Positions 12,511 to 46,311 of a stretch of DNA of 64,000 nucleotides are shown piece after piece. Each line of letters starts with the position of its first letter. Position 1 is the stretch's first letter. The translations under genes were made by a program, and so were the position numbers. The notes under the pieces are model-generated. The model did no database searches. It was not told where the DNA came from and worked only from the letters and a program-made list of their open reading frames with translations. Source of the DNA: DHVE2 group archaeon (GTDB lineage Archaea > Thermoplasmatota > Thermoplasmata > Thermoplasmatales > Aciduliprofundaceae); contig JALWRZ010000010.1 of assembly GCA_026993785.1 (NCBI GenBank), forward strand, positions 62,001 through 126,000, in the 5' to 3' direction.

Positions 12511-12583
12511 GGGGCCGTAGGGTAGCTTGGCATCCTACCACCCTGGGGCGGTGGCGACCCGAGTTCAAATCTCGGCGGCCCCA
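12511..12583 (+). tRNA. tRNA-Pro(GGG), integration target
   Basis: 73 bases with acceptor GGGGCCG/CGGCCCC, anticodon arm CCACC-CTGGGGC-GGTGG (anticodon GGG) and T-arm ending TTCAAATCTCGG. The gene remains intact because the integrating element restored its last 16 bases. A T-rich promoter region lies at 12460-12480. No CCA is encoded. Confidence 0.93.
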
Positions 12584-12624
12584 CTAAAAAGTTTCTCGGT
12601 CCCAACCAAATTTGAACAAACCAT
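12565..12624 (-). pseudogene. 5' fragment of the attP-spanning gene, cut by integration
   Basis: Directly after the integrase stop, the minus strand has AGGAGGTGAG and then an ATG at 12624 that reads MVCSNLVGTEKLFSGAAEI and hits TGA at 12565-12567, just past the att core inside tRNA-Pro. The same frame continues without interruption at attR (32923 downwards), giving a 72-residue protein if the ends are joined. So this is the 5' part of a gene that is whole only in the circular form. The good ribosome binding site and exact frame match argue against chance. Confidence 0.7.
12568..12583 (+). other. attL core
   Basis: AATCTCGGCGGCCCCA, the last 16 bases of tRNA-Pro, occurs again in the same orientation at 32923-32938. 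A tRNA 3' end repeated on the far side of a tyrosine integrase is the classical attachment-site arrangement. Confidence 0.93.
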
Positions 12625-12626
12625 TT

Positions 12627-13502
12627 TTACTCACCTCCTGATTTTTCTTCTACAGAACGGGATTTTACATCATATCCCCCAAATAGATCATCCTTCTCAT
12701 AAATCTGAGAAAGGGTAATTGAAGCGAGTAAAGACTTAAGATATACCTGAGTGGTAGACAAAGATGCATGCCCTAAATACTGTCGGATTGCTTCCAGGTC
12801 CACGCCTTTCCGGTATAGATCAACTGCTCTCCAATGCCTACAAGCATGTACATGCAAAGGTACGCCTAATGCCTTACCTATCTGCCAGAAAATAGCTCCT
12901 ATCGTTTTAATATGAATACGGCCCTGTGGAGTGGTGAAAAGCGCATATTTGTCCGATGCAATACGGTAATATCGAATATATTCCTGGGTTAATCTCCAAA
13001 CTTCCTTGGGCATGGGGATGCGTCTGGAGACATTCATCTTAGAATCACGGATGCTTATCCAGTTCTCAGAAACATCAGAGATGTTAAGATTTGCAATTTC
13101 TCTACGCCTTAACGCCAAAAATGCATAGCGTATTATTAGCTGATTTCTCTTGGTGATTGCTGGATCTGCCCATCTGAAATTCAATATCTTTTTCATATCC
13201 TCATCGGAGGGAATGTATATCTCTTTCACACTCCGTGTGTGCCAGGTTTTCAATTTTATATCTCTGCCCAGAAAACGCATATAAACGTTTATCGCCTTGA
13301 TATCATGATTAAGAGCTACTTTGCCCCGATGCATCTCCTGATTCATGATCCATTTGGTAAGCTCCAGAGATGTCGCAGTTTCTAAATCTATCTCTTGGAA
13401 TATTCTCCTCAATCTGCGATCGTAATCATCTATTGTCGCTCTTCTATAGCGTTCATTGAACATCCACATCAGAAATTCTTCACGATGATAACTCACTCCC
13501 AT
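12627..13502 (-). CDS. int: Tyrosine recombinase, element integrase
   Basis: 291 residues. The SAM-like core-binding domain is at 5-80 and the catalytic domain from about 95. Active-site residues visible are Arg in LALRRREIANL (about 132), H219 and R222 in HACRHWR, H245 in LGHASLSTTQ and the nucleophile Y254 in TQVYLK. It is an intact gene, unlike the SSV-type integrases that are split by integration; here the split gene is the one behind it. It overlaps the upstream wHTH gene by ten bases. Its target is the tRNA-Pro at 12511. Confidence 0.92.
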   Translation of the reverse strand: MGVSYHREEFLMWMFNERYRRATIDDYDRRLRRIFQEIDLETATSLELTKWIMNQEMHRGKVALNHDIKAINVYMRFLGRDIKLKTWHTRSVKEIYIPSDEDMKKILNFRWADPAITKRNQLIIRYAFLALRRREIANLNISDVSENWISIRDSKMNVSRRIPMPKEVWRLTQEYIRYYRIASDKYALFTTPQGRIHIKTIGAIFWQIGKALGVPLHVHACRHWRAVDLYRKGVDLEAIRQYLGHASLSTTQVYLKSLLASITLSQIYEKDDLFGGYDVKSRSVEEKSGGE

Positions 13503-14142: not shown

Positions 14143-14471
14143 AGCACCTCCTCAGAAACTTCAATGAGTTCTTCTCCTCTCTCTCCAAATAAATCCCTTG
14201 CGAGCTCCTTCAGCTTCTCAACCCTCTCTTTTCTTCTTTTGTTGTCATACGAGTTTGCCGCAAGCAAGAAATACATAGCCCACATCATTATTATCAAAGT
14301 ACCGTAGAAAAAAAGTGTGCCCACGATATCCCTCACAAATGCAGACACTGCGACGGTTATTATCGAGATTATTGAGAGAACCATCAGAAGTATTTTTATT
14401 CCATTGCTCTTCATTGCATACTCCCACAGAGTTTGGTCAGGCATTGGATTCCACCCCCCGGTGCTGCTCAT
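14139..14471 (-). CDS. Small two-span membrane protein of the element
   Basis: 110 residues with two adjacent hydrophobic spans at about 29-50 (IKILLMVLSIISIITVAVSA) and 55-78 (GTLFFYGTLIIMMWAMYFLL), then a charged tail KRRKERVEKLKELARDLFG. It has the shape of a small envelope or coat protein of a membrane virus, but no family is recognised. It overlaps the ribbon-helix-helix gene before it and the acidic protein after it. Confidence 0.65.
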   Translation of the reverse strand: MSSTGGWNPMPDQTLWEYAMKSNGIKILLMVLSIISIITVAVSAFVRDIVGTLFFYGTLIIMMWAMYFLLAANSYDNKRRKERVEKLKELARDLFGERGEELIEVSEEVL

Positions 14472-14622
14472 AAAAGTTTAAAAGATAATTCACCGCTTGC
14501 CCTAATGTGTCGAGCTCTTCTCTGTGCATCACTTTCTTTAGACGCTTCCAATCCTCCATACTTATTCTTACTTGCATAGCCTTCTTCACCTCCTTTTTTG
14601 TCGATGTTGTAGATAACATCAT
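14437..14622 (-). CDS. Ribbon-helix-helix regulator A
   Basis: 61 residues with a ribbon-helix-helix core: KAMQVRISMEDWKRLKKVM (strand and helix 1), LGQAVNYLLNFYEQH (helix 2). The start could be ATG 14622 or the internal Met before QVRIS. It heads the minus-strand integrase operon and faces regulator B1 across a palindrome-rich gap, so it probably controls both directions. Confidence 0.72.
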   Translation of the reverse strand: MMLSTTSTKKEVKKAMQVRISMEDWKRLKKVMHREELDTLGQAVNYLLNFYEQHRGVESNA

Positions 14623-14702
14623 GCATTCCTCCTTAATAAATCTGTCGATGATGTCATTACTAATGACAAAAACTTAATGTCTTCAATGTCCATGTTATCT
14701 AC
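14609..14702. promoter_or_regulatory. Divergent control region between regulators A and B1
   Basis: Between the two divergent genes lie a perfect 15-base palindrome GTCATTA-C-TAATGAC at 14653-14667 and, around it, an 11-base inverted pair GTAGATAACAT (14609-14619) and ATGTTATCTAC (14692-14702). The symmetry centres of the inner and outer repeats are within five bases of each other, as expected for cooperative binding by dimeric ribbon-helix-helix proteins. Confidence 0.7.
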
Positions 14703-14703
14703 T

Positions 14704-14865
14704 ATGCCGGGTGTAAGAGGCAAGCCCAAATCAGAATATCCGCAAATACGTGTTTCTAAGGAAACGTATGAGAAATTAAGGAAGTTGAAGTTCAAGTTAG
14801 AATGTGAAACTTTTGATGAACTGATACGGAAACTCATTGAAATCTCTGAGTCGCAGGAGGAGTGA
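14704..14865 (+). CDS. Ribbon-helix-helix-like protein B1
   Basis: About 53 residues from Met 14704 (62 from ATG 14677). The stretch YPQIRVSKETYEKLRKLKF followed by TFDELIRKLIEI matches its neighbour B2 (YVQIRLHRDVYEKL...TFNDVVKKLIEE), so the two are tandem paralogues. This is the antitoxin or regulator type of ribbon-helix-helix (strand, then two helices). The alignment with B2 favours the start at 14704. B2 begins three bases after its stop. Confidence 0.68.
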   Translation: MPGVRGKPKSEYPQIRVSKETYEKLRKLKFKLECETFDELIRKLIEISESQEE

Positions 14866-14868
14866 ACC

Positions 14869-15042
14869 ATGTCACCAAGAACAAAGGGAGGGCCAAAAGA
14901 GGGAAAAGAATATGTCCAGATACGCCTCCATCGGGATGTGTACGAAAAACTTGCGGATCTGAGATTTGAGTTTAAAGTCCTGACATTCAATGATGTTGTG
15001 AAAAAACTCATTGAGGAATACGAGAAGTCCCGGGAGAAGTGA
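14869..15042 (+). CDS. Ribbon-helix-helix-like protein B2
   Basis: 57 residues, starting MSPRTKGGPKEGKEYVQIRL and ending EEYEKSREK. It is preceded by GGAGGAG. It is a tandem paralogue of B1 with the same strand-helix-helix plan. A membrane protein gene follows seven bases later in the same direction. No toxin is evident beside the pair. Confidence 0.68.
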   Translation: MSPRTKGGPKEGKEYVQIRLHRDVYEKLADLRFEFKVLTFNDVVKKLIEEYEKSREK

Positions 15043-15048
15043 GTGGCC

Positions 15049-15258
15049 ATGTCCCCGCAAGTTAGGCCCCAATTCTGGGAGAATTTGATGATTTTCTTTA
15101 TAGTTTTTATACTTGCTCTTTTGGGATTTTGGGAAATTTTGCATGGAACATATTGGTATTGGGAGCCTGAGGTTACTATCGGATGGTCTATTATATTGGC
15201 TTTGATCGTGGCTTCAACCTTCTTTGCAGGACTACATATCCATTTCCATCGGAAATGA
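15049..15258 (+). CDS. Small two-span membrane protein
   Basis: About 69 residues from ATG 15049: a short polar start (MSPQVRPQFWEN), span 1 LMIFFIVFILALLGFWEIL, a tryptophan/tyrosine-rich loop, span 2 IGWSIILALIVASTFFAGL, and a basic HIHFHRK tail. It is the third gene of the plus-strand B1-B2 unit and ends one base before the convergent membrane gene. Unknown family; possibly a virion or superinfection-exclusion membrane protein. Confidence 0.6.
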   Translation: MSPQVRPQFWENLMIFFIVFILALLGFWEILHGTYWYWEPEVTIGWSIILALIVASTFFAGLHIHFHRK

Positions 15259-15259
15259 A

Positions 15260-15430
15260 TCATCTTGATTCCCTCCTTATTCTCCAATCCAATGCATAGA
15301 AAATCAATCCCAAAGTGGCAACGCCCAAAAACAACTCTGCATTATGCACATCTCCGTAAACCAAGAATGTGCCAGCTCCAATCATGCTCAGCTTGTATAC
15401 TACATCTCCTACTCTCCACCAGTCACGCAT
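15260..15430 (-). CDS. Small membrane protein cotranscribed with regulator C
   Basis: 56 residues read on the minus strand from ATG 15430: MRDWWRVGDVVYKLSMIGAG, one or two hydrophobic spans (TFLVYG and LFLGVATLGLIFYAL) and a basic end DWRIRRESR. It overlaps the end of regulator C by eight bases, so the two are coupled, paralleling the B2-membrane-protein pair on the other strand. Function unknown. Confidence 0.6.
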   Translation of the reverse strand: MRDWWRVGDVVYKLSMIGAGTFLVYGDVHNAELFLGVATLGLIFYALDWRIRRESR

Positions 15431-15602
15431 TGGAATCTACCCCCTCTTTTGTTATCTCTTTTAGCTTTTCACGTACAGCTTCTCTTATGAACTCTGATAA
15501 ACTGCTGTACCTTCCAGAAGCCACTATTTTCTCAACATCTTTCAAAAGAGATTCTGGTAAAGACACCGTCCGCCAACCTTTTACCACGCTACCACTCTCC
15601 AT
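15423..15602 (-). CDS. Ribbon-helix-helix regulator C
   Basis: 59 residues, too short to be noticed by length alone. It reads GWRTVSLPESLLKDVEKIVA then YSSLSEFIREAVREKLKEI, a textbook CopG-type ribbon-helix-helix with the S-E-F-I-R-E-A-V helix 2. The divergent regulator D has the same features (YRTISLPSDL...YSEFVREAVRQYL), so they are paralogues facing each other over shared TTACGCCAT sites. Confidence 0.78.
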   Translation of the reverse strand: MESGSVVKGWRTVSLPESLLKDVEKIVASGRYSSLSEFIREAVREKLKEITKEGVDSNA

Positions 15603-15612
15603 TTAAACCACC

Positions 15613-15701
15613 TTACGCCATGTATAACGCAATGGATGTATTTAATTGTTACGCCATGAATGGCGTAATAAAGATTATACCTTATGGCTCTGTTACGCCA
15701 T
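15613..15701. promoter_or_regulatory. Operator cluster TTACGCCAT between regulators C and D
   Basis: TTACGCCAT occurs at 15613-15621, 15649-15657 and 15693-15701, and its inverse ATGGCGTAA at 15660-15668. The second copy and the inverse form a palindrome with perfect 9-base arms and a 2-base spacer. The outer half-sites lie close to the two start codons. This is a clear candidate binding array for the flanking ribbon-helix-helix proteins. Confidence 0.82.
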
Positions 15702-15703
15702 CC

Positions 15704-15862
15704 ATGCCTCCTCAAAAATATCGCACTATCTCTCTGCCTTCTGACCTTATAGAAGAGATTGAAAATTTTATCAAAGAGCATCCCGAACTTGGCTATTCCT
15801 CTTATTCTGAATTTGTTCGGGAGGCTGTGCGCCAGTATCTCTTTAAACTCAAAGGTCTCTGA
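15704..15862 (+). CDS. Ribbon-helix-helix regulator D
   Basis: 52 residues from ATG 15704: MPPQKYRTISLPSDLIEEIE, then YSSYSEFVREAVRQYLFKLKGL. The frame extends upstream to 15620, but that would translate the operator sites, and alignment with regulator C supports 15704. It is a CopG-type DNA-binding dimer subunit, probably repressing itself and regulator C. Confidence 0.78.
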   Translation: MPPQKYRTISLPSDLIEEIENFIKEHPELGYSSYSEFVREAVRQYLFKLKGL

Positions 15863-15869
15863 ATGCCAC

Positions 15870-16049
15870 TCACGCATCCGTGGCCACCTCCTGCGGGGAT
15901 TCCATAGACTGCGCCGGGCTTGTGATTGCGGTGTGTTCTTCTAAAAGTTCGGCTATCACATCATTGAGGCTTTTCTTCCTTTCTACAAGTTTTATGTGCA
16001 TAAGTTTGGCCCAAACCGCTTCCTCAACCCTTATTGTTTTTTCCTCCAT
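15870..16049 (-). CDS. Ribbon-helix-helix-like regulator E
   Basis: 59 residues on the minus strand: MEEKTIRVEEAVWAKLMHIK, LVERKKSLNDVIAELLEEH and a polar tail. The strand TIRV and helix 2 SLNDVIAELL match the archaeal VapB-like antitoxin/regulator group. The gene is convergent with regulator D and divergent from the wHTH gene at 16135, with a palindromic promoter between. Confidence 0.7.
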   Translation of the reverse strand: MEEKTIRVEEAVWAKLMHIKLVERKKSLNDVIAELLEEHTAITSPAQSMESPQEVATDA

Positions 16050-16064
16050 GTTCTCACCTCAATA

Positions 16065-16112
16065 TGTATAAACTTTTATACATCTATACATTAATACATC
16101 ATCCTATAAATA
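16065..16112. promoter_or_regulatory. Divergent promoter with TGTATAAA palindrome
   Basis: TGTATAAA-CT-TTTATACA at 16065-16082 is a perfect inverted repeat with 8-base arms and doubles as a TATA region. A second TATA box, CCTATAAATA at 16103-16112, lies 25-30 bases before ATG 16135, giving a leaderless plus-strand message. Further TATACAT and TACAT repeats lie between. Confidence 0.72.
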
Positions 16113-16134
16113 CTTTTGGATGCATGTCTTAACG

Positions 16135-16443
16135 ATGTTGGACTATGACGAAATTGAAAATCCGTACGAGGTAGAGAACCTTGCAGACGCTATCTCTCAC
16201 CACATCCGATACATGGTGATGGTTATCCTACGGAAGCACAAAGCCATGACCATTGGGGACTTGATGAGAGAATTAGAGAAAAAATTCGGAGTAAGAATGA
16301 CTCACGGCAATATCAGGGCACACCTAATGAAAATGGTGATTCCGGGTATCATTGAAATAACGAAGATGGATGGAAAGGATGCAGTAATTCTTAAGAAAGA
16401 TATCAAAATATTCGTGAAGGAGGTGGAAGGAAATGAAAGATAA
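16135..16443 (+). CDS. Winged-helix regulator of the element
   Basis: About 102 residues with an ArsR/PadR-like winged helix: AISHHIRYMVMVILRKHKA (helix 1), MTIGDLMRELEKKFG and MTHGNIRAHLMKMVIPGII (recognition helix), then a short wing. The TATA spacing points to the ATG at 16135; ATG 16120 is in frame. It overlaps the next gene by 11 bases and begins the five-gene plus-strand block to 18738. Confidence 0.68.
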   Translation: MLDYDEIENPYEVENLADAISHHIRYMVMVILRKHKAMTIGDLMRELEKKFGVRMTHGNIRAHLMKMVIPGIIEITKMDGKDAVILKKDIKIFVKEVEGNER

Positions 16444-16720
16444 TCTGGTAAGATTCTCCTTCCTGCTTTCCGGGGGAGAGCAAATAACCCGTGTTATGGA
16501 ATTTAAGGGTATAGATGAGGCCGATTTTCTGAATATTCGAAGATATGATGATAGATACGTGATAGAAATAGGCCCTCACACCATAGACCTCCCGGCAAAG
16601 CTAATGAAGGATCTCGTAGAGAATATTTTGCTCACTTATCCTGAGGATGAGGATCTCAAAGATATTATAGCCTCTCTTGCTCAAGATAAGCCATGGCTCT
16701 TTGAGAATTTGCCAGGGTAA
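16433..16720 (+). CDS. Small protein of unknown function
   Basis: 95 residues, mixed beta then helix: VRFSFLLSGGEQITRVMEF, YDDRYVIEIGPHTIDLP, then LMKDLVENILLTYPEDEDL. No family recognised. It overlaps the wHTH gene and so is coupled to it. Confidence 0.6.
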   Translation: MKDNLVRFSFLLSGGEQITRVMEFKGIDEADFLNIRRYDDRYVIEIGPHTIDLPAKLMKDLVENILLTYPEDEDLKDIIASLAQDKPWLFENLPG

Positions 16721-16765
16721 AGGTTAAATAACACTAAAAACATGCAAACCCTGGAGGATGTAAAA

Positions 16766-17419
16766 ATGGATAAACCAAAGTATTGTCCTTATTGCGGGCA
16801 TGAAATCCAGCCTGACTGGAAGATATGCCCTTATTGTGGACATCAACTGGAAGTTAAGAAAACCACTATTCAAAGCAAGATTATATATTACTACATCATA
16901 TCTTTGATATTAGGTGCTATATTTGTTATTCTGGCCATACTCCTGGCAATCTGGAGCTTTAAGGCTTCTTCCAACACAGTTATTCAATATTTCTCATCGC
17001 ATCCTGATATGGGAGAGAGAATGCTGTATAAGTATAGTAAAGTCGCATTGAACTTATGGAATCTTTCCGTTGTGGGGGGCTTGGTATTTGCTCTTATAGG
17101 ATTGATAACTGCTGTAGTGGCAGCATTCAAAAAGAAGCATATCCTAACAAGTGCAGGATTTTATATTACTGCCCTCGCATTATTCGGCATATCTCTAAGT
17201 TCTACCTTTTGGATGATGATGATGACCTATAACTCATTGTATAATGAATCCAAGAATATCACCTCTAACTATCAGACACTCACTAACACATTAATTGGCT
17301 ATCAAAACTTTCTCTGGATCCTCTTCATTGTGGGTGGTATTCTTATATTCGTAACCTTCTTAACCCACAGTAAAGAGACTGGACAAACCAGCGAGGAAAA
17401 AGCATCACAGGAGGGATGA
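16766..17419 (+). CDS. Double zinc-ribbon membrane protein
   Basis: About 217 residues from ATG 16766, which follows GGAGGATG. Two CxxC-based zinc ribbons open the protein (YCPYCGHEIQPDWKICPYCGHQLE), followed by four hydrophobic spans (for example IIYYYIISLILGAIFVILAI and LWILFIVGGILIFVTFLTH) and a polar tail. It is a membrane-anchored zinc-ribbon protein of unknown role. Two related-looking membrane or exported proteins follow in the same operon. Confidence 0.65.
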   Translation: MDKPKYCPYCGHEIQPDWKICPYCGHQLEVKKTTIQSKIIYYYIISLILGAIFVILAILLAIWSFKASSNTVIQYFSSHPDMGERMLYKYSKVALNLWNLSVVGGLVFALIGLITAVVAAFKKKHILTSAGFYITALALFGISLSSTFWMMMMTYNSLYNESKNITSNYQTLTNTLIGYQNFLWILFIVGGILIFVTFLTHSKETGQTSEEKASQEG

Positions 17420-17423
17420 TGCC

Positions 17424-18176
17424 GTGAAACATTTATGGTTATATGTAAGTGTCATAATAGTTGTTGCATTATTGATCTCAGTTTTTGTGTTTGTTAGTCT
17501 TCACAACAGTGAAAACAAGCAAAATATTAAGTTAATAGATTATAAGGTGGTAAATGATTATACTGCAGTTTATGGACATCATTGGAACACTACTACTTTA
17601 AGATTGAAATTCAACATGCCTCCCTCCGCCATAACAAATGAATATAATGTGTATGTTTATGATTCCCAAAAGAAAATGGTAGGAAAAGATATTGTCTATG
17701 GTGAGGGTGGAGGCTATCTGGATATCTATTTCCATGTGCCAATAAATTTTGTTGGAACTTATTATGTGGGCTTAGGTGGAGCATTCGATCCAAATCTTGG
17801 ATACTACCCTTTCTCGAAACTAGATACTGTTTTTAAAATAAATTTCACACAACCTTCTCTTGACATAACAGGTTGGTCGGTAAACTATAAAAAAGAGAGT
17901 AACAACGCAATGCTCGTTTCTATTAAGTTTTCTTTCAGAGTAAAGGGTGAGACCCCTTTCTATTATAGATATATTTTCTGGGAAATTGGTGACAAATCAA
18001 ATGGTGCTATAGTGGGAGAAAAACCCGTTAAGGAGGTAGATCCGAATAAATTGGTAACCACCATTATTTATATTTATCAACCTTTTGCTTATGGCTCATA
18101 TAAAGCAAAAATAACCCTAAGTGGATGCGATTTAGACCTTTCTGACACGATAAATATCAATCTGCAAAGGAGTTGA
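17424..18176 (+). CDS. Membrane-anchored extracellular protein
   Basis: 250 residues. It starts at GTG 17424 after GGAGGATGATG. An N-terminal signal anchor (LWLYVSVIIVVALLISVFVFV) is followed by about 220 residues of beta-rich, Tyr/Asn-rich sequence with no TM at the end. The segment likely folds as two beta-sandwich domains. No family is recognised. It lies four bases behind the zinc-ribbon membrane protein. Confidence 0.6.
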   Translation: MKHLWLYVSVIIVVALLISVFVFVSLHNSENKQNIKLIDYKVVNDYTAVYGHHWNTTTLRLKFNMPPSAITNEYNVYVYDSQKKMVGKDIVYGEGGGYLDIYFHVPINFVGTYYVGLGGAFDPNLGYYPFSKLDTVFKINFTQPSLDITGWSVNYKKESNNAMLVSIKFSFRVKGETPFYYRYIFWEIGDKSNGAIVGEKPVKEVDPNKLVTTIIYIYQPFAYGSYKAKITLSGCDLDLSDTININLQRS

Positions 18177-18180
18177 TGTT

Positions 18181-18738
18181 ATGGAAGAGGATGAGGATAT
18201 CGAGGTAATAGAACTAAAATCAAATAACAAGAGGGTGAAGAGAGAAAAAACAGAGATTGAAATCCTAGAGGTTTATCGCTGGGCAAGTGTGGTGTTAATG
18301 GTTTTCATCACCTTAATAGGATTTGCCCTCATATATCTGGGATATACACGTTTGTACTCTGTTTTAACATCAAGTATTGGAAGGTTTACTGCTTTAAAAG
18401 GCCTAGGTGCGGCGTATGGAATTATTTTATTCTTTGAGATTGTATTTATTCTTGTGGGAATAAGATTTGTTTGGAGGTTTTACAAAAGTGGAAATGGTGA
18501 AATGGGCGCTGCTATGGCATTCACTTCTCTTGCGCTTTTACATATCTTCAACTTATCTTATGGCCTGATAATCCTACTCTTCTATGAGTCGATGAATATC
18601 AAAACTCCCAAGAACTTTATTCACGATCTTACTTTTTGGAATGGGTTATCTATTGGTTTTATTATACTCATAGTACTTGCTATTGGAGTTTTAGGCGCTG
18701 GACATGCAAGAAGGCAGAGAATAAAATCATCACGCTGA
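18181..18738 (+). CDS. Four-span membrane protein
   Basis: 185 residues: a charged N-terminal tail (EEDEDIEVIELKSNNKRVKR), then hydrophobic spans VVLMVFITLIGFALIYLGY, AAYGIILFFEIVFILVGI, AMAFTSLALLHIFNLSYGLI and GLSIGFIILIVLAIGVLG, and a basic end. It is the last gene of the plus-strand block and is preceded by AAGGAG. Unknown family. Confidence 0.6.
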   Translation: MEEDEDIEVIELKSNNKRVKREKTEIEILEVYRWASVVLMVFITLIGFALIYLGYTRLYSVLTSSIGRFTALKGLGAAYGIILFFEIVFILVGIRFVWRFYKSGNGEMGAAMAFTSLALLHIFNLSYGLIILLFYESMNIKTPKNFIHDLTFWNGLSIGFIILIVLAIGVLGAGHARRQRIKSSR

Positions 18739-19008
18739 CCAGCACCTCCACCCCCTTTTATTTTTATTCGCCACACTTTTAAAATTCCTCTGAGCGATTT
18801 TTTCAAGCAGGGGTATAGAAAATATCCTCTTGGCCAAAATCGGCGGCGATAGGTATGCGTATGGAACATGTGCTGGGCTTGGTCTCCCATACTCTAATAC
18901 AGGAGTGAGATTCTATCTCGAACCTTAATTATTTTCAATTGTTTTTATTAAATTATTTAAATCCCGAGGAGGAAAATTATATATATCCGATCCCAACTAT
19001 CTCTTACT
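18739..19008 (+). other. Non-coding gap with promoter of the cargo pair
   Basis: 270 bases without a convincing gene. The right end has BRE/TATA-like sequence AAATTATATATATCC around 18975-18987, about 27 bases before the ATG of the AbrB-DUF488 gene, giving a leaderless start. Just before it is AT-rich sequence (about 18925-18960), marking a drop in GC that continues through the cargo. The left part holds a polypyrimidine tract at the operon end. Confidence 0.6.
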
Positions 19009-19581
19009 ATGAAAGAATACAAAAGAAGAATTGTGAATGGCAAAGGTGCAGCTTATATCAATATCCCCAAAAAATTGATGGAATCTATGGGGTGGGAGAT
19101 AGGAGATTCCGTGTATCTGTTTCCCAACTCTTCTGGAATATTTCTGTCTACTCCAAAGGTCTATACTCTAGGATATGAAGGGTTATCTCTGAAAAAATTT
19201 AAAGAGATACTCAAGAAGTATAGGATACAACAAGTTATTGATGTGCGAAATACTCCTTGGAGTGCAAATCCCGTGTTTAGAAGTGGGTACCTGGATAAAG
19301 TGCTAGAAGAAGCGGGTATTTTCTATTATAATATACCTAGGGTTGGTGCTCCCAAATCGTTGAGAAATATAATAACTAGTGATGGATATGAGGCCTTTTT
19401 TGAAAAATATAGAAGATATTTAAGAAATCAGAGAAAAGCTTTCAAATTATTAATGAAGCTGATAAACAATGGTAGAACTTTACTCTTATGTTATGAGAAA
19501 GATTGGAATATATGCCATAGAAAAATAATTGCTGAAGAATTGGAAAAACGAGGTTATGAGGTGGTACATATTGAGCACTGA
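19009..19581 (+). CDS. AbrB-like domain fused to DUF488
   Basis: 190 residues. Residues 1-45 (KRRIVNGKGAAYINIPKKLM then WEIGDSVYLFPNSSGIFLS) are a SpoVT/AbrB swapped-hairpin DNA-binding domain. Residues 50-190 are DUF488: VYTLGYEGLSLKKFKEIL, VIDVRNTPWSANP, and the hallmark LLLCYEKDWNICHRKIIAEEL with Cys, Glu and CHR. DUF488 proteins have no settled biochemistry; several sit in defence or DNA-modification neighbourhoods. The fusion to an AbrB domain is unusual. The DNA here is much more AT-rich than the rest of the element, suggesting later acquisition as cargo. It overlaps the next gene. Confidence 0.75.
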   Translation: MKEYKRRIVNGKGAAYINIPKKLMESMGWEIGDSVYLFPNSSGIFLSTPKVYTLGYEGLSLKKFKEILKKYRIQQVIDVRNTPWSANPVFRSGYLDKVLEEAGIFYYNIPRVGAPKSLRNIITSDGYEAFFEKYRRYLRNQRKAFKLLMKLINNGRTLLLCYEKDWNICHRKIIAEELEKRGYEVVHIEH

Positions 19582-20431
19582 TTGGATCTCTGCAGATGTT
19601 TATTTGTTTATAAAAACATATCCTGTGTTAAGTAGAACTTATAAGGTCCTTATATGTACAGCTGCAATATGGGAAAAAAATGATGGTAGCTATCAGCTTA
19701 TTAGAATGTATCCCGTACCTTTTGATTTTTATAAATCTCACTATGAGGGTCTTAAAAAATTTACTAAGATAAGAGTTGAAATTAAAAAATCAAATGAAAA
19801 ATTGAAAAGAAGTGATAGTTACAAGGTGAGATTTGAACGATTTAGAATATTGGATGATTCTCTTGCATACAAAGGGAGACAATTGACAGATGATATTTGG
19901 AGAGCTCGAAATTCCATTGTGAAAGAGGTTATGTATGATTCTGTGGAGCAATTAGAAGAGCTTAAAGAGAAAGAAAAAATTTCACTTGGTGTTATTAAGC
20001 CGAGAGAAATCTATGATTTCACAATGACTCCAAAAGAATTGGTTGGGAATAAATGGGAAAGAGAACTATTAAATGATACGCAGAAAACATTAGATTTCTT
20101 CAACACCGGGAAATCATATGGAGAAATTAGACCTATTGAACATATTCCATATAGGTTTGGATATCAGTTTAAATGTGATAATTATAGGTGCAAAGGACAT
20201 AATATGATGTGTGAGGATTGGGAATTGCTGCAATTATGGAGGGGAATTAGGGACTATTATCATAACAAAAAAGGTATAGATTTGACTCATGAGGAGATCT
20301 TTGAAAAAGTAAAGCAAAAATATCTTGATGAATTCACAAATAAGTATCACGCCTATTTTGTAATGGGTACGGAAAGCAGATGGAACAAATGGATAATTAT
20401 TGGCGTGTACTATACGCCAATTCCCATTTAA
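19556..20431 (+). CDS. Cargo partner protein with putative zinc site
   Basis: About 291 residues from ATG 19556, overlapping the DUF488 gene by 26 bases; TTG 19529 is in frame upstream. The C-terminal part contains IPYRFGYQFKC, then CDNYRCKGHNMMCEDWELL, where three Cys and a His could bind zinc, and the end WNKWIIIGVYYTP. The N-terminal part (RWYILSTDWISADVYLF, KVLICTAAIWEKNDGSYQLI) resembles a modified-nucleotide or nucleic-acid-binding fold only loosely. I cannot name a family. Overlap and shared AT-rich composition show that it works with the DUF488 protein. Confidence 0.6.
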   Translation: MRWYILSTDWISADVYLFIKTYPVLSRTYKVLICTAAIWEKNDGSYQLIRMYPVPFDFYKSHYEGLKKFTKIRVEIKKSNEKLKRSDSYKVRFERFRILDDSLAYKGRQLTDDIWRARNSIVKEVMYDSVEQLEELKEKEKISLGVIKPREIYDFTMTPKELVGNKWERELLNDTQKTLDFFNTGKSYGEIRPIEHIPYRFGYQFKCDNYRCKGHNMMCEDWELLQLWRGIRDYYHNKKGIDLTHEEIFEKVKQKYLDEFTNKYHAYFVMGTESRWNKWIIIGVYYTPIPI

Positions 20432-20619
20432 GGGCAGATGCATCTAATATCTATATATACATATTACATAGAGGGTGAAAACTTTTCGCTTTGCCCTCCA
20501 GGAAGGATGAAAGTTAGATTTTCAGAAATTAAGTATAGAACAGGATTTTCAACATCAAAATGGTTTCAAAAGGAACCTTTTGAAGAAATAAGGTGCGAAA
20601 AAGGAGCGAAATTTTTTTG

Positions 20620-21231
20620 TCAGACACCGGCACGGTAACAGATTGTTTTTACTGTGCTATACTTGATTCCTGTCTTCTCTGAAATCTCTTTGAGGGTATA
20701 ACCCTTTTTCCTCAGGTTTAGAATCTGTTCTTTTAGTTGATCAGATATTTTAGGGGGTCTCCCTATGCGCTTCCCAGCTTTCCTGGCCTTTTCCATTCCT
20801 AACTTAGTGCGCTCTGAATTACTCTCTCGCTCATACTGTGCAAAGGAGACCAGTATATGAGCAAGAAGCCGACCTGATGGTGTACTCATGTCCAGTCCTT
20901 CAGTCACCGATGCAATTTTAGGCCCTATCTTCTCCACAATCTTAGTGAAATCATTAACGCTTCTTGTGATCCTGTCGAGCCTCCAGGTTATGAGCATGTC
21001 AGCTCCCCCCTCCTCAATTAAATTCAAAGCTTTATTAAGCTCTTTTCTCCTCTGTAAGCTCCCAGTTTTGGCGGTTTTTGGCTCTTTATACTCCAGAACC
21101 ACGTTCCATCCTTTGGCCTTTGCGTAGGCCCTGCATGCCTCAAGCTGAGCCTCTATGCTGTAGCCCTTTCGCTTCTGCTCTTCCGTCGAGACCCGGGCAT
21201 AGATTATTGCTCTCATATTACGGGAAGCCAT
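20620..21231 (-). CDS. Small serine recombinase (resolvase/invertase family)
   Basis: 203 residues. The catalytic domain has IIYARVSTEEQ with nucleophile Ser15, GYSIEAQLEACRAYAKAKGW, DMLITWRLDRITRS, SGRLLAHILVSFAQYERE and the long E-helix; the C-terminal 45 residues are a Hin-type helix-turn-helix (YTLKEISEKTGIKYSTVKTIC). It is the last gene of the minus-strand morphogenesis operon, with GGAG four bases before ATG 21231; ATG 21216 is also possible. It could resolve multimers of the circular form or invert a segment; no paired inverted site was found. Confidence 0.88.
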   Translation of the reverse strand: MASRNMRAIIYARVSTEEQKRKGYSIEAQLEACRAYAKAKGWNVVLEYKEPKTAKTGSLQRRKELNKALNLIEEGGADMLITWRLDRITRSVNDFTKIVEKIGPKIASVTEGLDMSTPSGRLLAHILVSFAQYERESNSERTKLGMEKARKAGKRIGRPPKISDQLKEQILNLRKKGYTLKEISEKTGIKYSTVKTICYRAGV

Positions 21232-32764: not shown

Positions 32765-32982
32765 AGTTCTCCCTCCAGGAATAAGATAAGCTCCTGTGGG
32801 CTTGGCTCCCACCAGTGGCCTGCCTCAAACCATCTTTCTACTAACTCCTTTATCCTCTCTTTCTCTGTGCCCTGAAAAATCTCCGATTGGCAAATCTGTT
32901 CCACAATGCTATTTATTCTGTCAATCTCGGCGGCCCCATTTTTCCAAGGTTGCGTCCCATTCAGATCTAAACATTTTTTCAT
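32761..32982 (-). CDS. 3' part of the attP-spanning gene, with a host-derived start
   Basis: In the integrated state the frame opens at ATG 32982 in flanking DNA (MKKCLDLNGTQPWKN) and continues over attR into the element as GAAEIDRINSIVEQICQSEI, KERIKELVERWFEAGHWWEP and LILFLEGEL. Residues after the att core are element-encoded and helical. In the circular form the first 14 codons come instead from 12624 downwards, behind a strong ribosome binding site. No good ribosome binding site was seen for the 32982 start, so this half may be silent when integrated. Confidence 0.55.
   Translation of the reverse strand: MKKCLDLNGTQPWKNGAAEIDRINSIVEQICQSEIFQGTEKERIKELVERWFEAGHWWEPSPQELILFLEGEL
32923..32938 (+). 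other. attR core
   Basis: AATCTCGGCGGCCCCA, the second copy of the tRNA-Pro 3' end. The flanking bases differ from attL on both sides (GTC before, TTTTT after), fixing the repeat at 16 bases. Confidence 0.92.
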
Positions 32983-40706: not shown

Positions 40707-42223
40707 ATCCCAAGAACCCAGGTATAGCCAGAAAATCGCTGTTTCTCCTTTCCTACAATATTTTTGGTGGTGTAACCGGCTACATCACCATGTTTTTCGC
40801 CATAAGATTCGTGGGCCAGGATGTGTGGGGTATCTATGGCTCGGCTCTTGGCATTGCAGGGCTTCTTGGAATCTTAGCTACTTTGGGTGTGGATTCTGCC
40901 CATGTTAAAAAGATAACACAAAAAGAGGAAAAGGAGGAATGCATGGGTGCATACCTTCTCATAAAAGGCTCGCTGGGGCTTATTTTTCTCCTCGTTTCCT
41001 TTGGTGGCTTTTTCCTTCTTGGCGATGTTTTTGGCTACAAATTTGAATCTCCCTATCTGGAGAAAGCGGTATATCTTGCTATTCTTAGCATGCTTCTTTC
41101 TTCTATAGCCAATATATTCAGAACCACATATCAGGCAAGACTGGATGCCCGTAAATCAGTAGCGCCTCTATTCGCCCAGGTAAGCGTTCAAAATCTTCTA
41201 ATTATAGCGTTTTCCTTATATTTTAGGCTGAACCCTTCAATGAATCGGGAATTCATAGGGGTTCTTTTTGCCTATTCTTTTCTCCTCGGTCAATTCTCCC
41301 GCCTTCTGATTTATATCCTTATAGGATTTAGGCGTCCTATTCCTGTCAAAAAACCATCCTCATCTCTACTGAGAGAGTATATAGGCTTTTCTATCCCCCT
41401 TGCTCTTATGGGTATCGTGGGTACCGTTCAGGCATACACGGATAGAACCATGCTCCAATTCTTCTGGAACTCTGCAGAAGTGGGTGGCTATTTCTCTGTG
41501 CAGAAGCTCGCGCTCTTTGTGACCTACATCGGGGCATCTGTGAGTTTTTTCCTATATCCTGCTCAATCCACATACTATGAAAATAAAGATAGAAGAAGAT
41601 TTTTCCAGATAACTACCAAATCTGAGAGATATCTATCTCTTGCTACTGCACCCTTTGTATTCTTCACTGTGGTAATGGCGCCGGAAATTCTCAATATTTT
41701 CAAGAAGACCTTGATACCATACTCCCTGCCCCTCATAATTCTTATGCTCTACGCCTACTTGAATGTTATAAACAAACCCTATGGCTCGCAGATTACTTCA
41801 GCAAACAAGCCCCATGAGGTGCTGAGGGTTGGTATTCTCCAGGCCTCTGTGAATGTAATTCTCAATGCCATATTCATACCCACATCCATCCTTGGCATAC
41901 CCCTTTTGGGATGGAAAAGCACAGGTGCTGCTCTGGCTACGCTTCTCTCTTTCCTCATAGGACTCATCTATTTCCGATATCGCCTTAGAAAAATTCTTGG
42001 AACAAAATACGAAAAAAGGATTTTCTATCATCTATGGGCGGGCACCGCATCTATGCTCGTTCTCTACTTCCTAAAACACTTCATAGGACCTCTCTATCCT
42101 TGGTATTTGGTAATCGGAGCTTTCCTCTTATTCATCGCAATCTATGCAAGTCTCCTCTATCTTGTGGGCGAGTTCGGACGCCCAGAGATTCTCCTCGCTC
42201 TGAATGTTTTGGGAAGGAGATAA
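40703..42223 (+). CDS. Polysaccharide flippase (Wzx/MATE-like)
   Basis: About 506 residues from ATG 40703, with 12-14 spans and the Wzx/MurJ pattern ([40 protein letters not shown]). It would move lipid-linked surface oligosaccharides or polymers outward. It begins the surface-polymer region and is convergent with the sulfatase-fold gene. Confidence 0.8.
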
Positions 42224-42243
42224 AAACTACCAAAAAAGTAAAT

Positions 42244-43596
42244 TTAAGTAATTCTCGTTCTAACTTTTGTTTTAGTAGCTGCATTTAAAAATTTGATTAC
42301 TTCCTTCTTCATTCCCTCTTCTATTTCTTTTGTAACTCTTATTTTGGGGTCATGGGATACAATACTCTCGAATTTCCAATCGGCAACATTAAAAATTCCC
42401 TTAAAGCTCTTATAATAAACTGCAATTCTGTATTTTTCTAGTTTAGCTATTACTTGTTGATATTCTTCTGTTTTTATGTGGTGTAGAACCTTATGTATGC
42501 CATAGGATTCCCCAAACACTGTCTCTGAGTATAACAGGGAATCATCACTTATGTTGTCCTCTACAAATCTTAGTATAAATGGATAGAGCTTCAATAAACT
42601 AATATACTTATCTTTCTTTTTTGTTGTTAATTTTAGATGAGATCCTTTAGGATATTTTATTAGAAGAGGCACCCTCAAAAGTTCGTCATATAGAAAAGTG
42701 CCGTGACTAATCCTTCCATGCTCTCCTAGTAATTGTCCATGATCACTGGTAATTATAATTAACGAATCCTCAAATTCATTTTTTTCTTTCAGGATTTGAA
42801 TTATCTTGGTAATTTGTCTAAATATATAATCGCATTCTTTTTCATATTTAGATTTCCACTTTTTTATAAATTCAATATCAATCTTATTTTTTATCCAATT
42901 TATCTCCACCTCACGCGCTGTGAATTCACCCAACAAATAAGGTTCATGTGTCTCCATAAAATTTATAAAAATGAATTTTTGATGAGGGTCTGTTCTCTTT
43001 AATTCCCTTATAATTTTTTTAGAGCCTTTTTCCAAGGGATAGTGTCTGAATAAATCAAGCAGTAAACTAATTTTGTACAAAATATAATCAAGAACTAGTT
43101 TGGATAACAATTTTATCTCTTTATTCTGAATCAAGAATTTTATATTTTTTATTTTAGAATAATTATTAGACGCTGAAATCTTCATATACCTCCTTCTCTC
43201 CTCCTCTGAGAGGATGGATTTATATGAAGTTGTAGATGCATCATAGAAATAATCAAAATCTTTGAAACCAAAAAAAGGGCTAACCAAGGTGTTTGCGCTT
43301 AATAAATACGTTTTATATCCTAATTCGGAAAGTCTTAAATGTAACAGATTATCACTTACAAGTTTTACCTCCAACATCTTTTTTTCCTTCGTTTCATGGG
43401 CACCATGAAATATAGGGTAGAGTCCTGTGAATATGGAGGCATGAGAGGGTAGAGTCCACGGAGCAGTAGAAATTACATTTTCGTACACGACAAAACCCTC
43501 TTTTTGAAGTCTCTCTTCTAAAGGTTTCGCATAATCCTTTCTTAGTGTATCAATCACAATCAAAATTATATTAGGGTAGTGGGCAGATGAAGGCAT
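42244..43596 (-). CDS. Sulfatase-fold phosphotransferase or hydrolase
   Basis: 450 residues of the alkaline phosphatase/sulfatase fold. IILIVIDTLRKDYA holds the first metal Asp pair, APWTLPSHASIFTGLYP the nucleophile region, and SDHGQLLGEHGRISHG the second metal Asp-His. The residue in the place of the sulfatase Cys/Ser is Thr, as in phosphoglycerol or phosphoethanolamine transferases. No signal peptide or span, so it is cytoplasmic or released. The DNA is clearly more AT-rich than its surroundings. Confidence 0.72.
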   Translation of the reverse strand: MPSSAHYPNIILIVIDTLRKDYAKPLEERLQKEGFVVYENVISTAPWTLPSHASIFTGLYPIFHGAHETKEKKMLEVKLVSDNLLHLRLSELGYKTYLLSANTLVSPFFGFKDFDYFYDASTTSYKSILSEEERRRYMKISASNNYSKIKNIKFLIQNKEIKLLSKLVLDYILYKISLLLDLFRHYPLEKGSKKIIRELKRTDPHQKFIFINFMETHEPYLLGEFTAREVEINWIKNKIDIEFIKKWKSKYEKECDYIFRQITKIIQILKEKNEFEDSLIIITSDHGQLLGEHGRISHGTFLYDELLRVPLLIKYPKGSHLKLTTKKKDKYISLLKLYPFILRFVEDNISDDSLLYSETVFGESYGIHKVLHHIKTEEYQQVIAKLEKYRIAVYYKSFKGIFNVADWKFESIVSHDPKIRVTKEIEEGMKKEVIKFLNAATKTKVRTRIT

Positions 43597-43695
43597 CGTG
43601 TGTGAGAATATCTAACGCACTATATGTAGTTTTCTTCATTTTTCCTCAAACCAATAAAACGCAAATATTTTAAATGATAATTCAAATTCTCTCTT

Positions 43696-44388
43696 ATGAA
43701 ATCTTTGGATTGCATATTCCTTGCAGCGGGAATTGGTAAAAGGATGAAAAAGAATGTGCCTAAACAACTAATAAGAATAGGTGGAAAGCCTATTCTTATT
43801 TATTCCCTTGAAACACTAGTAAAAAGTGGATATTTTAAAAATATAATAATAACCTATCCTGAAGGATATCGTCAAGAATATGAAAAGATACTTTCCAGTT
43901 ATTTTGTGAATGATGCACTAAAAAAATTTATCCTTGTGAAAGGCGGAGAGACAAGGCAAGAATCTGTGTTTAATGGATTGAAATATGTGGATACAAAGAG
44001 AGTACTAATTCATGAGGCGGCAAGGCCATTTTTATCCTTAGATCTTATTAAAAAAGTGTTATCATATAGTGATGCAGCGGTGGTTCCAGTAATAAGCATC
44101 CCCTTTACTGTGGCAGGGGGTGATGAATTTATGAAGAAAATCTTCAAAAGAGATGAACTTAAAAATATTCAGTTACCTCAGGTGTTTGATACTCCTATTT
44201 TATTAGAGTCCCACCAAAAAGCAAGAGAGGATAAGTTAATTTTTACAGATGATTCCACGTTGGTCTTTTACTATGGAAATAAAGTGAGGTTTGTACCGGG
44301 TGAAGAGACTAATATAAAAATTACTACTCCTACGGATTTATTACTTGCTGAGAGGATTCTTTTTGCTAAAGATCTTCCCTCAGAGTAG
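43696..44388 (+). CDS. IspD/TarI-like cytidylyltransferase
   Basis: 230 residues: the nucleotidyltransferase start FLAAGIGKRMKKNVPKQLI, VLIHEAARPFLSLDLI, LPQVFDTPILLE and EETNIKITTPTDLLLAE. This family includes IspD (MEP pathway) and TarI/Bcs1 (ribitol 5-phosphate cytidylyltransferase). Archaea make isoprenoids from mevalonate, so the TarI reading is preferred. The adjacent SDR and TagF-like genes support CDP-polyol synthesis. Confidence 0.78.
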   Translation: MKSLDCIFLAAGIGKRMKKNVPKQLIRIGGKPILIYSLETLVKSGYFKNIIITYPEGYRQEYEKILSSYFVNDALKKFILVKGGETRQESVFNGLKYVDTKRVLIHEAARPFLSLDLIKKVLSYSDAAVVPVISIPFTVAGGDEFMKKIFKRDELKNIQLPQVFDTPILLESHQKAREDKLIFTDDSTLVFYYGNKVRFVPGEETNIKITTPTDLLLAERILFAKDLPSE

Positions 44389-44397
44389 GTGATGGTA

Positions 44398-45105
44398 ATG
44401 AATCTTCAAGGTAAAGTTGCAATAGTGACGGGTGCCAGTCGAGGGATAGGAAAAGAAATAGCGAGAAGGTTGGCAAAAAATAGAGTTAGATTAGGTATAA
44501 TTTCTAGAAATGAAAAAGTGTTAAAGGAGACTGCTAAGGAATTGAAAAACCTTACAGAGGTCTATTATAAAGCATTGGATGTAAGGGATGAAAATGGAGT
44601 TAAGGAATTTGTAAAAGATATGATAAATCTGTATGGGAGAATAGATATATTAATAAACAATGCGGGCTATGTAAAGCCATTATCTCTCCTTGAAACAACA
44701 TTGGAAGATTGGAAGATGCAGCTGGATATAAATTTAACGGGCACATTTTTAATGACTAGAGAAGTAGTACGATATATGAAAAATTATGGAGGAAAAATAG
44801 TGAACATCGCATCTACTGCCGGGTTAACGCCGAGACCGGGATGGAGTGCATATGCTGCAAGTAAAGCGGGAGTGGTTAATTTTTCTCTTACAATGAGTGA
44901 GGAGCTAAAACAATATGGTATTAAAGTTTATTGTGTTGCACCAGGTAGAACTGCTACGGAGCTGAGAAGAATACTTGCCCCAGACGAGGATCAATCCAAA
45001 ATACTTCAACCTGAGAATGTTGCAGAATTGGTAGAAACCCTATTAACAGAGAAAGGTGACTATATAGATGGACAGGTAATAGTAATTAGAAAAAAGTTAT
45101 TTTAA
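44398..45105 (+). CDS. Short-chain dehydrogenase/reductase of the polymer locus
   Basis: About 235 residues: NAD(P) site VAIVTGASRGIGKEIA, NNAGYV, catalytic Ser in VNIASTAGLTPR and Tyr-Lys in YAASKAG. In bacteria a reductase beside TarI makes ribitol 5-phosphate from ribulose 5-phosphate (the Bcs1 fusion uses an SDR domain); the same role is inferred. The ATG at 44398 follows GGTGAT. Its end overlaps the convergent TagF-like gene by nine bases. Confidence 0.78.
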   Translation: MNLQGKVAIVTGASRGIGKEIARRLAKNRVRLGIISRNEKVLKETAKELKNLTEVYYKALDVRDENGVKEFVKDMINLYGRIDILINNAGYVKPLSLLETTLEDWKMQLDINLTGTFLMTREVVRYMKNYGGKIVNIASTAGLTPRPGWSAYAASKAGVVNFSLTMSEELKQYGIKVYCVAPGRTATELRRILAPDEDQSKILQPENVAELVETLLTEKGDYIDGQVIVIRKKLF

Positions 45106-46311
45106 TATATTTTCTATGAGATCTATTACATTATCTGAATATTTTCCGCTCACAGCACCATGAATTAAGTGTAAGCATTTTTCATAAAATTCAAGATTAA
45201 AAGCCTTCTTTTCTTGTATAACTTGTGCCAACACTTCATAGAAATCCGCGCTATTTGTTGTCATATATCCTGGCCTGTACTCAGGAGGGACTTCAGAAAG
45301 CCCTCTCTGAAATGTAAAATATTTTTTATTAACCTCTATAAATATTATTGGTCTTCGTGTAACTAAGTAATCTGTATATATGGAAGACCAGTCAGTAATA
45401 AGAAGATCAGATACAGCTAATAATAACATGGTGTCAGGATACTTATTCATTGGAACAAATTTGATATTATCATAGCTCTTTAAATACTTTTTTAGCTTTT
45501 TTCTATTGTATTTAGCATAGGGATGTGTACGTAACAAAAGATATGATCTATATTTTTTTAAAAATTTTGCTAGCTGGGCAATACCCTTGTATGGATCACC
45601 CCAAGGCCATAAACCTATATCAAAGGTTGGAGCATACAAAATTATTTTTTTAAACTCTTTGGGGATATTTAACATATCCCTTAATTTATCAGGTGGTGTT
45701 TGGAGATATTTTAAAAGCCGATCCAGTCTTGCAAATCCGGTTACATATAGTTTGTGAGGTGGTGCGCTCCATAATTCAATGTGTTTTTTCTTAATAAATT
45801 CTGAAGACATACACCAACCATCAAATTCATCATACGCGCCAGTAAAATCTGTACCCTTGGGTCCCACACCATGCCACAACTGAAGCTTCTTTAAGGATCT
45901 ATACTGAGATTGAAGAATCGTTGGAAAATTAATAGCACCCCTATGCGCAAGCACCCAGAGATCTGCGGCGAGGTAGGTTCTTATGCTGAGTAAACCATGC
46001 TTATAAAGTACCGGTTTTCCCTCCCTTCGCAGTTTGAGAAACTCATTTAGATTGCTCGTCATCCAGTAGACCTCATATTTTTTTCGCACATCCTCTCTTT
46101 CCAGCATTCTCTCATACACAGCTCTGGGATTACCTGTATAGTAAAGATTGGTGAAAATTATGATTTTTTTAGTCTTTTTAATAGGTTTAGGATGGAATAA
46201 TTTATATGCAGTAACGTGTAAGGAAATAAAAATAAGTTTGAATAGGTTTTCAATATTCGAACCCTGTCTCATCAACGACCTGAGGTAAATAATCTTAGAA
46301 GCTTGACTCAT
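45097..46311 (-). CDS. CDP-glycerol/CDP-ribitol glycerophosphotransferase-like (TagF/TarL family)
   Basis: About 404 residues with the PF04464 signatures: IIIFTNLYYTGNPRAVYERM, KLQLWHGVGPKG, IILYAPTFD, LLLRTHPYA and SDLLITDWSSIYTDYLVTRR, where the His residues and DWSS loop bind the CDP-polyol. The enzyme would build a poly(polyol phosphate). It starts at 46311 (MSQASKII); the longer frame overlaps the glycosyltransferase. It is five bases behind that gene and convergent with the SDR. Confidence 0.82.
   Translation of the reverse strand: MSQASKIIYLRSLMRQGSNIENLFKLIFISLHVTAYKLFHPKPIKKTKKIIIFTNLYYTGNPRAVYERMLEREDVRKKYEVYWMTSNLNEFLKLRREGKPVLYKHGLLSIRTYLAADLWVLAHRGAINFPTILQSQYRSLKKLQLWHGVGPKGTDFTGAYDEFDGWCMSSEFIKKKHIELWSAPPHKLYVTGFARLDRLLKYLQTPPDKLRDMLNIPKEFKKIILYAPTFDIGLWPWGDPYKGIAQLAKFLKKYRSYLLLRTHPYAKYNRKKLKKYLKSYDNIKFVPMNKYPDTMLLLAVSDLLITDWSSIYTDYLVTRRPIIFIEVNKKYFTFQRGLSEVPPEYRPGYMTTNSADFYEVLAQVIQEKKAFNLEFYEKCLHLIHGAVSGKYSDNVIDLIENILK

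Follow-up and report, generated by a model that had tools for sequence, protein, structure and literature searches.

Two overlapping + strand genes in a 20.4-kb integrative element of an archaeal genome (1.66 Mb) encode a putative AbrB/MazE-DUF488 fusion protein and the obligate, co-inherited partner of that DUF488 domain. The pair is mobile-element cargo in a variable slot, and by its model matches it is a divergent archaeal member of PDC-M19, a catalogued defence candidate. The partner is predicted to be built of two tandem OB folds, and its family is predicted to carry sliding-clamp-binding motifs fitted to the clamp of the host domain. The reading we favour, at about an even chance, makes the pair a mobile conflict module of the PDC-M19 type whose target is DNA in replication and whose purpose is most likely anti-virus or anti-plasmid. 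Positions below are those of the window, the whole stretch of 64,000 nucleotides that was analysed.

The integrative element and its cargo slot

The element is bounded by 16-nt repeats of the 3' end of a tRNA-Pro gene, and its integrase gene adjoins that tRNA gene. Its main features are the following.

12511..12584, + strand: tRNA-Pro (ggg) gene, the integration target (ARAGORN)
12568..12583, + strand: att copy 1 (AATCTCGGCGGCCCCA), an exact 16-nt repeat inside the tRNA-Pro 3' end
12627..13502, - strand: tyrosine integrase of the element (PF00589, E 1e-22; 80% identical in the sister element)
14305..20619, no strand: variable cargo slot of the element (the sister element has 2.1 kb of unrelated genes here)
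20620..21231, - strand: serine recombinase of the element core, not part of the pair (PF00239; 63% identical in the sister element)
32923..32938, + strand: att copy 2, an exact 16-nt repeat at the opposite end of the element

The gene pair sits where the mostly + strand gene block of the element gives way to its - strand block, that is, between the two halves of the element as originally predicted. A collinear sister element is found in the complete genome of another genus of the same family, as two tandem 17.5-kb copies at a different, intron-containing tRNA gene (L195/L196; G009:C1:157283-189999). The integrase, serine recombinase, ATPase and secreted-protein genes are common to both elements, with identities of 80%, 63% and 67% for the first three and of about 48-73% for other genes, and in place of the region from 14.3 to 20.6 kb of the window, which includes the pair, the sister element has 2.1 kb of genes unrelated to it. 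This marks the pair as cargo of a slot whose content varies, in agreement with its earlier description as an accessory module. No M19B gene is present in the sister-element genome. The sister slot encodes, among others, a 310-residue protein without a Pfam match, whose sequence suggested a PD-(D/E)xK nuclease by eye. The serine recombinase was considered as the mover of the pair and rejected, since it belongs to the conserved element core. An empty-site search in the genus found no tRNA-Pro gene near the right-flank thioesterase in relatives, though the thioesterase itself is conserved, and no viral relatives of the element's ATPase were found with that protein as query.

The AT-richness noted for the pair is real, at 33.0% GC compared with 42.0% for the element and with only 2.4% of same-length segments as low, but the sharp contrast with its surroundings is not; the genes immediately before it (16.7-18.7 kb) have 36.3% GC, and so the low GC content is a gradient across the whole variable slot. 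A second AT-rich stretch (31-37% GC) lies outside the element, at 42000-46000 of the window.

The DUF488 protein and its partner

The features of the pair itself are as follows.

18977-18986, + strand: TATA-like box TTATATATAT for the pair, 23-32 nt before the first ATG (position test about 0.4%)
19009..19581, + strand: gene 1, putative AbrB/MazE-DUF488 fusion, 190 aa, PDC-M19A-like (Pfam, PADLOC, AlphaFold2, MazE match)
19009..19149, + strand: putative AbrB/MazE-type DNA-binding hairpin domain, residues 1-47 (AlphaFold2 and MazE match; weak in Pfam)
19489..19521, + strand: DUF488 motif C161-x-E163...C169-H170-R171, invariant in 100 partner-linked DUF488s
19556..20431, + strand: gene 2, the partner, two predicted tandem OB folds, PDC-M19B-like (PADLOC, AlphaFold2, Foldseek, VIA)
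20081..20101, + strand: QKTLDFF, predicted PCNA-binding motif, residues 176-182, in a low-confidence loop (Q176 89% and L179 86% conserved)
20174..20212, + strand: C207-x4-C212-x2-H215-x3-C219, not a family feature (alignment of relatives)

Both overlapping genes lie where the original prediction had placed them. It had also given them a leaderless promoter of their own, and the candidate TATA-like box, which would fall at that position in simulated sequence with a chance of about 0.4%, fits such a promoter.

Gene 1 had been read as an AbrB hairpin joined to a complete DUF488 domain with a CYEK...CHR motif, and both parts were recovered, the AbrB part as a putative domain. The DUF488 domain is complete (PF04343, residues 61-177, E 6e-25, 88.7 bits with a gathering score of 22.2). 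The N-terminus matches MazE/AbrB weakly in Pfam (16.9 bits, under the cut-off of 24.7), and in the AlphaFold2 model (pLDDT 93) it superposes on MazE (TMt 0.81, probability 1.00). Ten positions of DUF488 do not vary among 100 partner-linked copies (G55, Y56, D78, R80, G113, C161, E163, C169, H170 and R171), and the Cys/Glu/Cys-His-Arg site among them looks enzymatic. The DUF488 model is compatible with a phosphatase-like fold, and a methylase-domain fold scores equally (VIA Z of 8.5 for SsoPTP and 8.8 for tetrapyrrole-methylase domains). To our knowledge, the widespread DUF488 family has no settled function.

The partner is 291 aa long from the ATG at 19556 or 286 aa from the TTG at 19571, and it overlaps gene 1; the TTG is as likely a start as the ATG because homologues begin about 13-14 residues before a conserved K-x-Y-P. 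No Pfam or NCBIfam family matches it, and no solved (PDB) relatives of either protein were found by sequence. Its AlphaFold2 model, made with 85 aligned relatives (pLDDT 89, pTM 0.87), has two OB-fold barrels separated by a low-confidence loop (residues about 163-198, pLDDT about 53). The best solved structures in a Foldseek search with this model are RPA-DNA filaments (E 8e-6, probability 1.00) and HIN double-OB domains, and its top match in a viral structure library is the baculovirus ssDNA-binding protein LEF-3. By VIA the first OB fold resembles PriB (Z 8.3, rmsd 2.8 A, 88 aligned residues) and the Rim1 SSB (Z 8.1), values of about 8 being only modestly above background. The likeness holds at the level of the fold because the relative orientation of the domains differs (high global rmsd), and we describe the partner as a predicted pair of tandem OB folds of the RPA/SSB-like kind. 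The zinc site that had been proposed for this protein did not survive as a family feature: its motif is present here, but only 15 of 102 relatives have all four residues and 34 have its first two Cys, and what the family conserves in this region is H...DWE.

Both genes match PADLOC models of PDC-M19, so the pair is not unheard of. Gene 1 matches PDC-M19A (PDLC04505, E 1e-30) over its DUF488 half, model positions 148-293 of 294, and gene 2 matches PDC-M19B (PDLC04508, E 2e-52) over positions 5-262 of 269; the N-terminal region of the M19A model (1-147), which PADLOC's rule is not known to require, is left unmatched by gene 1, and the locus L111 matches the whole model. The PDC label marks putative defence candidates identified through guilt-by-embedding, most of them experimentally untested (PMC12988326). 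In the literature searched, nothing was found under the name PDC-M19 and no published mechanism for the candidate, and among open papers naming DUF488 no title or abstract dealt with a defence role of the pair.

The N-terminus of the DUF488 relatives is interchangeable. The AbrB form is found in the window copy, in Heimdallarchaeum and in several Thermoplasmata, ParB_N plus HTH_ParB on a Saccharolobus plasmid and in Lokiarchaea, and XRE in Streptomyces; many DUF488s of the family are without any N-terminal domain. The commonest N-terminal domain of the partner-linked proteins is Panacea-like: 13 of 40 N-termini match SocA_Panacea (the best at 6.8e-6, above its cut-off), and an hhalign comparison with genuine Panacea proteins gave E 2.5e-5 and a probability of 75%, the control comparison giving 0.22. 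We note that the Panacea-like M19A N-terminus of L111 (L111:5101-5982) weakly matches a stretch of the DarG model (7.6e-5) and, also weakly, the C-terminal part of a type I specificity model.

Pairing, neighbourhoods and predicted sliding-clamp motifs

Partner relatives were gathered from plasmids and phages, whole genomes, genome contigs (148 relatives, 80 kept) and viral contigs (9), the last with an alignment as query, a single partner protein having found no viral relatives. The partner has a DUF488 ORF as its immediate neighbour in 117 of the 120 loci surveyed, which come from archaea, bacteria, plasmids and phages and are in part redundant; this ORF is upstream on the same strand in 87, downstream on the same strand in 18 and convergent in 12. 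The three exceptions are a contig edge, the plasmid pSOG2, where there is no DUF488 at all and a different gene adjoins the partner, and L060. The distance matrices of DUF488 and partner are correlated (r = 0.59; none of 2000 permutations rose above 0.11), and the pairing is obligate, with the two proteins inherited together. Clustering of the neighbouring genes gave no cluster common to more than 5 loci and hence no third conserved component.

Several loci depart from the usual pattern in detail. In L060 (4988-6001) a ParB_N-ASCH protein precedes the partner and an Eco57I-type methylase follows it in a genome without DUF488, and ASCH may there substitute for DUF488. The Sulfolobales plasmids L004 (4843-5349) and L005 (4855-5346) encode after the partner a small protein that is PD-(D/E)xK-like by eye, with no Pfam match. 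L026 and L027, in two genomes of the same taxonomic order (G057 and G046), are decayed pairs in which about 40 partner residues are left beside DUF488, broken up in L027. In Gordonia phages (L009:3030-5277) the partner (gene 43) and DUF488 (gene 42) adjoin an annotated immunity repressor, near an integrase, where a superinfection role is possible.

None of the 17 other genomes of the family that were examined has the pair, and its occurrence in the class is patchy (16 of 300 genomes), which rules out strict single-copy housekeeping genes inherited vertically. The nearest neighbours on 142 locus sides include type I HsdR and HsdS, type IIG and Eco57I enzymes, ResIII helicases and MADS-like genes; this enrichment in restriction genes is modest, and the control, drawn from the surroundings of an aminotransferase gene in 20 of these genomes, is small (57 genes) and gave no restriction match. 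On a Methanoregula contig (L057) HsdR, DUF488, the partner and HsdS follow one another in this order on the same strand, with small gaps, so that the pair is inside a type I restriction operon. These neighbourhoods support a defence role of the pair without proving it. Anti-virus defence, as originally suggested, is made plausible by them and by the PDC-M19 matches, and the argument for it from the zinc site falls away.

The loop between the barrels of the partner has the signature of a short linear motif, with Q176 and L179 conserved inside a low-confidence region. The consensus for binding is QL(S/D)LF for the bacterial clamp and Qxx[I/L]xxFF for PCNA (PMC9690074). The loop sequence of the window copy, QKTLDFF, is near a PIP box but one residue shorter than the canonical form, and this copy has no C-terminal tail. 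Among relatives the loop carries QxxL[FW] in 48 of 59 bacterial or viral partners (at most 8 in shuffles) and Qx[ST]L in 26 of 43 archaeal partners. C-terminal tails with QxxL[FW], often QLSLF, QISLF or QLDLF, end 29 of 52 bacterial partners (shuffle mean 0.8, maximum 5) and none of the 403 proteins encoded near them (p 6e-32; this value and those below treat as independent sequences that are related). Tails of 13 of the 43 archaeal partners are PIP-like, several of them QTLDKWF, QTLDKWL or QSLDRWL, and the C-terminus of the host's own FEN1 is QKSLDAWF. The looser PIP-like pattern also matches 14 of the 195 archaeal proteins encoded nearby, which makes the stricter [ST]L[DEHG]x[WYF] the better test; this form is found in 9 of 43 archaeal partners and in none of the 195 neighbours. 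The split of the tail motifs between bacteria and archaea is significant both ways (p 4e-8 and 2e-4). The only PIP-type tail filed under bacteria is that of L052, a short Bacteroidales-labelled contig with a pair similar to methanogen copies; the label is probably a binning error.

Possible roles and relation to known systems

If the pair is a conflict module, its parts could work together as follows. The double OB-fold partner would bind single-stranded or branched DNA at the fork and dock on the replication sliding clamp (PCNA in archaea, the beta clamp in bacteria) through its short disordered motif, and would bring the gene 1 protein to the fork of an invading replicon or control it there. 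Gene 1 would encode a DUF488 enzyme, bound to the partner and with a phosphatase/rhodanese-like Cys site, that attacks or marks DNA, acts on nucleotides, or blocks DNA synthesis at that place. Its N-terminal domain would couple expression or activity to the binding of DNA or a ligand, and the AbrB domain of the window copy may bind the pair's own promoter region and restrain expression. We infer DNA as the substrate, the autoregulation, the defence outcome and the steps that lead from docking to it; the clamp motifs are sequence matches and OB folds bind many things, which limits this explanation. Phages and plasmids carry copies of the pair too, and these may be directed at rivals or at the host. 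In its more specific form, a clamp-tethered immune or addiction module of archaea and bacteria in which an RPA-like protein with a clamp-fitted peptide delivers a DUF488 enzyme to the forks of invading replicons, the proposal is put forward tentatively and at somewhat less than an even chance.

The main rival, which we consider unlikely though the best of the alternatives, is a SocAB-like toxin-antitoxin pair. The OB partner would be the toxin, occupying the sliding clamp and single-stranded DNA and stalling replication, and the DUF488 protein, with its AbrB, Panacea-like, XRE or ParB N-terminus, would be antitoxin and autorepressor. SocB, which has the sliding clamp as its target (PMC12795458), is countered by the Panacea antitoxin SocA (PMC8832971), so that the Panacea-like domains, the commonest on DUF488 here, and the predicted clamp motifs make a striking joint parallel by analogy. 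The weak DarG match points the same way, as does the gene order, in which DUF488, often with a DNA-binding domain, comes first in 87 of 117 pairs and usually with a short overlap, like classical toxin-antitoxin operons. However, pairs that are convergent or have the partner first are frequent (30 of 117), many DUF488s are without an N-terminal domain, and the window copy has AbrB in place of Panacea. In addition the invariant Cys/Glu/Cys-His-Arg site is enzyme-like, the partner is a large protein of about 250-290 aa in which many residues are invariant, and the PADLOC matches are to candidate defence models rather than toxin-antitoxin systems.

Less probable again is an accessory for replication or DNA repair of mobile elements, in which a clamp-bound RPA/SSB-like protein and an enzyme that processes DNA ends or nucleotides would aid replication of the element or repair a specific lesion. 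OB folds and a clamp motif are the usual make-up of repair factors, the pair is carried by plasmids, phages and integrative elements, and NucS/EndoMS, a clamp-tethered nuclease for mismatches, is a precedent (PMC9690074). Yet conflict is a better fit than housekeeping repair for the scattered occurrence of the pair on chromosomes (16 of 300 genomes of the class), for its absence from sister elements that replicate without it, and for its location inside restriction operons. A transcriptional regulator pair of the element, an AbrB-DUF488 repressor with a co-factor and not a weapon, would account for the AbrB, XRE, ParB and Panacea-like fusions and for the immunity repressor beside the Gordonia phage copies, but it is very improbable, as many DUF488s of the family have no DNA-binding domain, repression needs neither clamp motifs nor an invariant catalytic-like site, and pairs are found in chromosomal restriction loci.

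The mobile conflict module remains the reading we prefer. The predicted double OB fold and clamp motifs, overlooked in the original prediction, are the likely handle on its mechanism, and with peptides matched to the host they make DUF488 and PDC-M19 biochemically testable. The switching between beta clamp and PCNA motifs within one small protein family is a natural experiment on how a mobile module adapts to new replication machinery, and a clamp-tethered module, if true, would show what DUF488 does biochemically in conflict and establish a principle of defence built on the replication clamp.

Among known systems PDC-M19 is the closest. Both genes of the window match its models, side by side and with complete DUF488 and partner domains, but the M19A models have a Panacea-like N-terminus where gene 1 has AbrB/MazE. 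New here are this AbrB N-terminus on a PDC-M19A-like protein, the predicted double OB fold of the partner and the predicted clamp motifs. SocAB shares the two-gene operon, the Panacea-like domain in the first gene of many relatives and a clamp-binding motif, here predicted, in the second gene; it differs in that the present pair has a DUF488 domain, a double OB partner as the putative toxin and, in the window copy, AbrB instead of Panacea. In the report on archaeal ParB-CTPase-DUF488 fusions (PMC12704722), CTP binding is described for a ParB-like fold fused to DUF488-HTH. The Saccharolobus plasmid pBEU9E1 encodes such a fusion, ParB_N-HTH_ParB-DUF488, followed by the same partner, whereas the window copy is without the ParB part. 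Finally, NucS/EndoMS is a nuclease of another fold and a mismatch repair factor, but like the predicted partner it works with the sliding clamp (PCNA in archaea, the beta clamp in actinobacteria) through a short motif.
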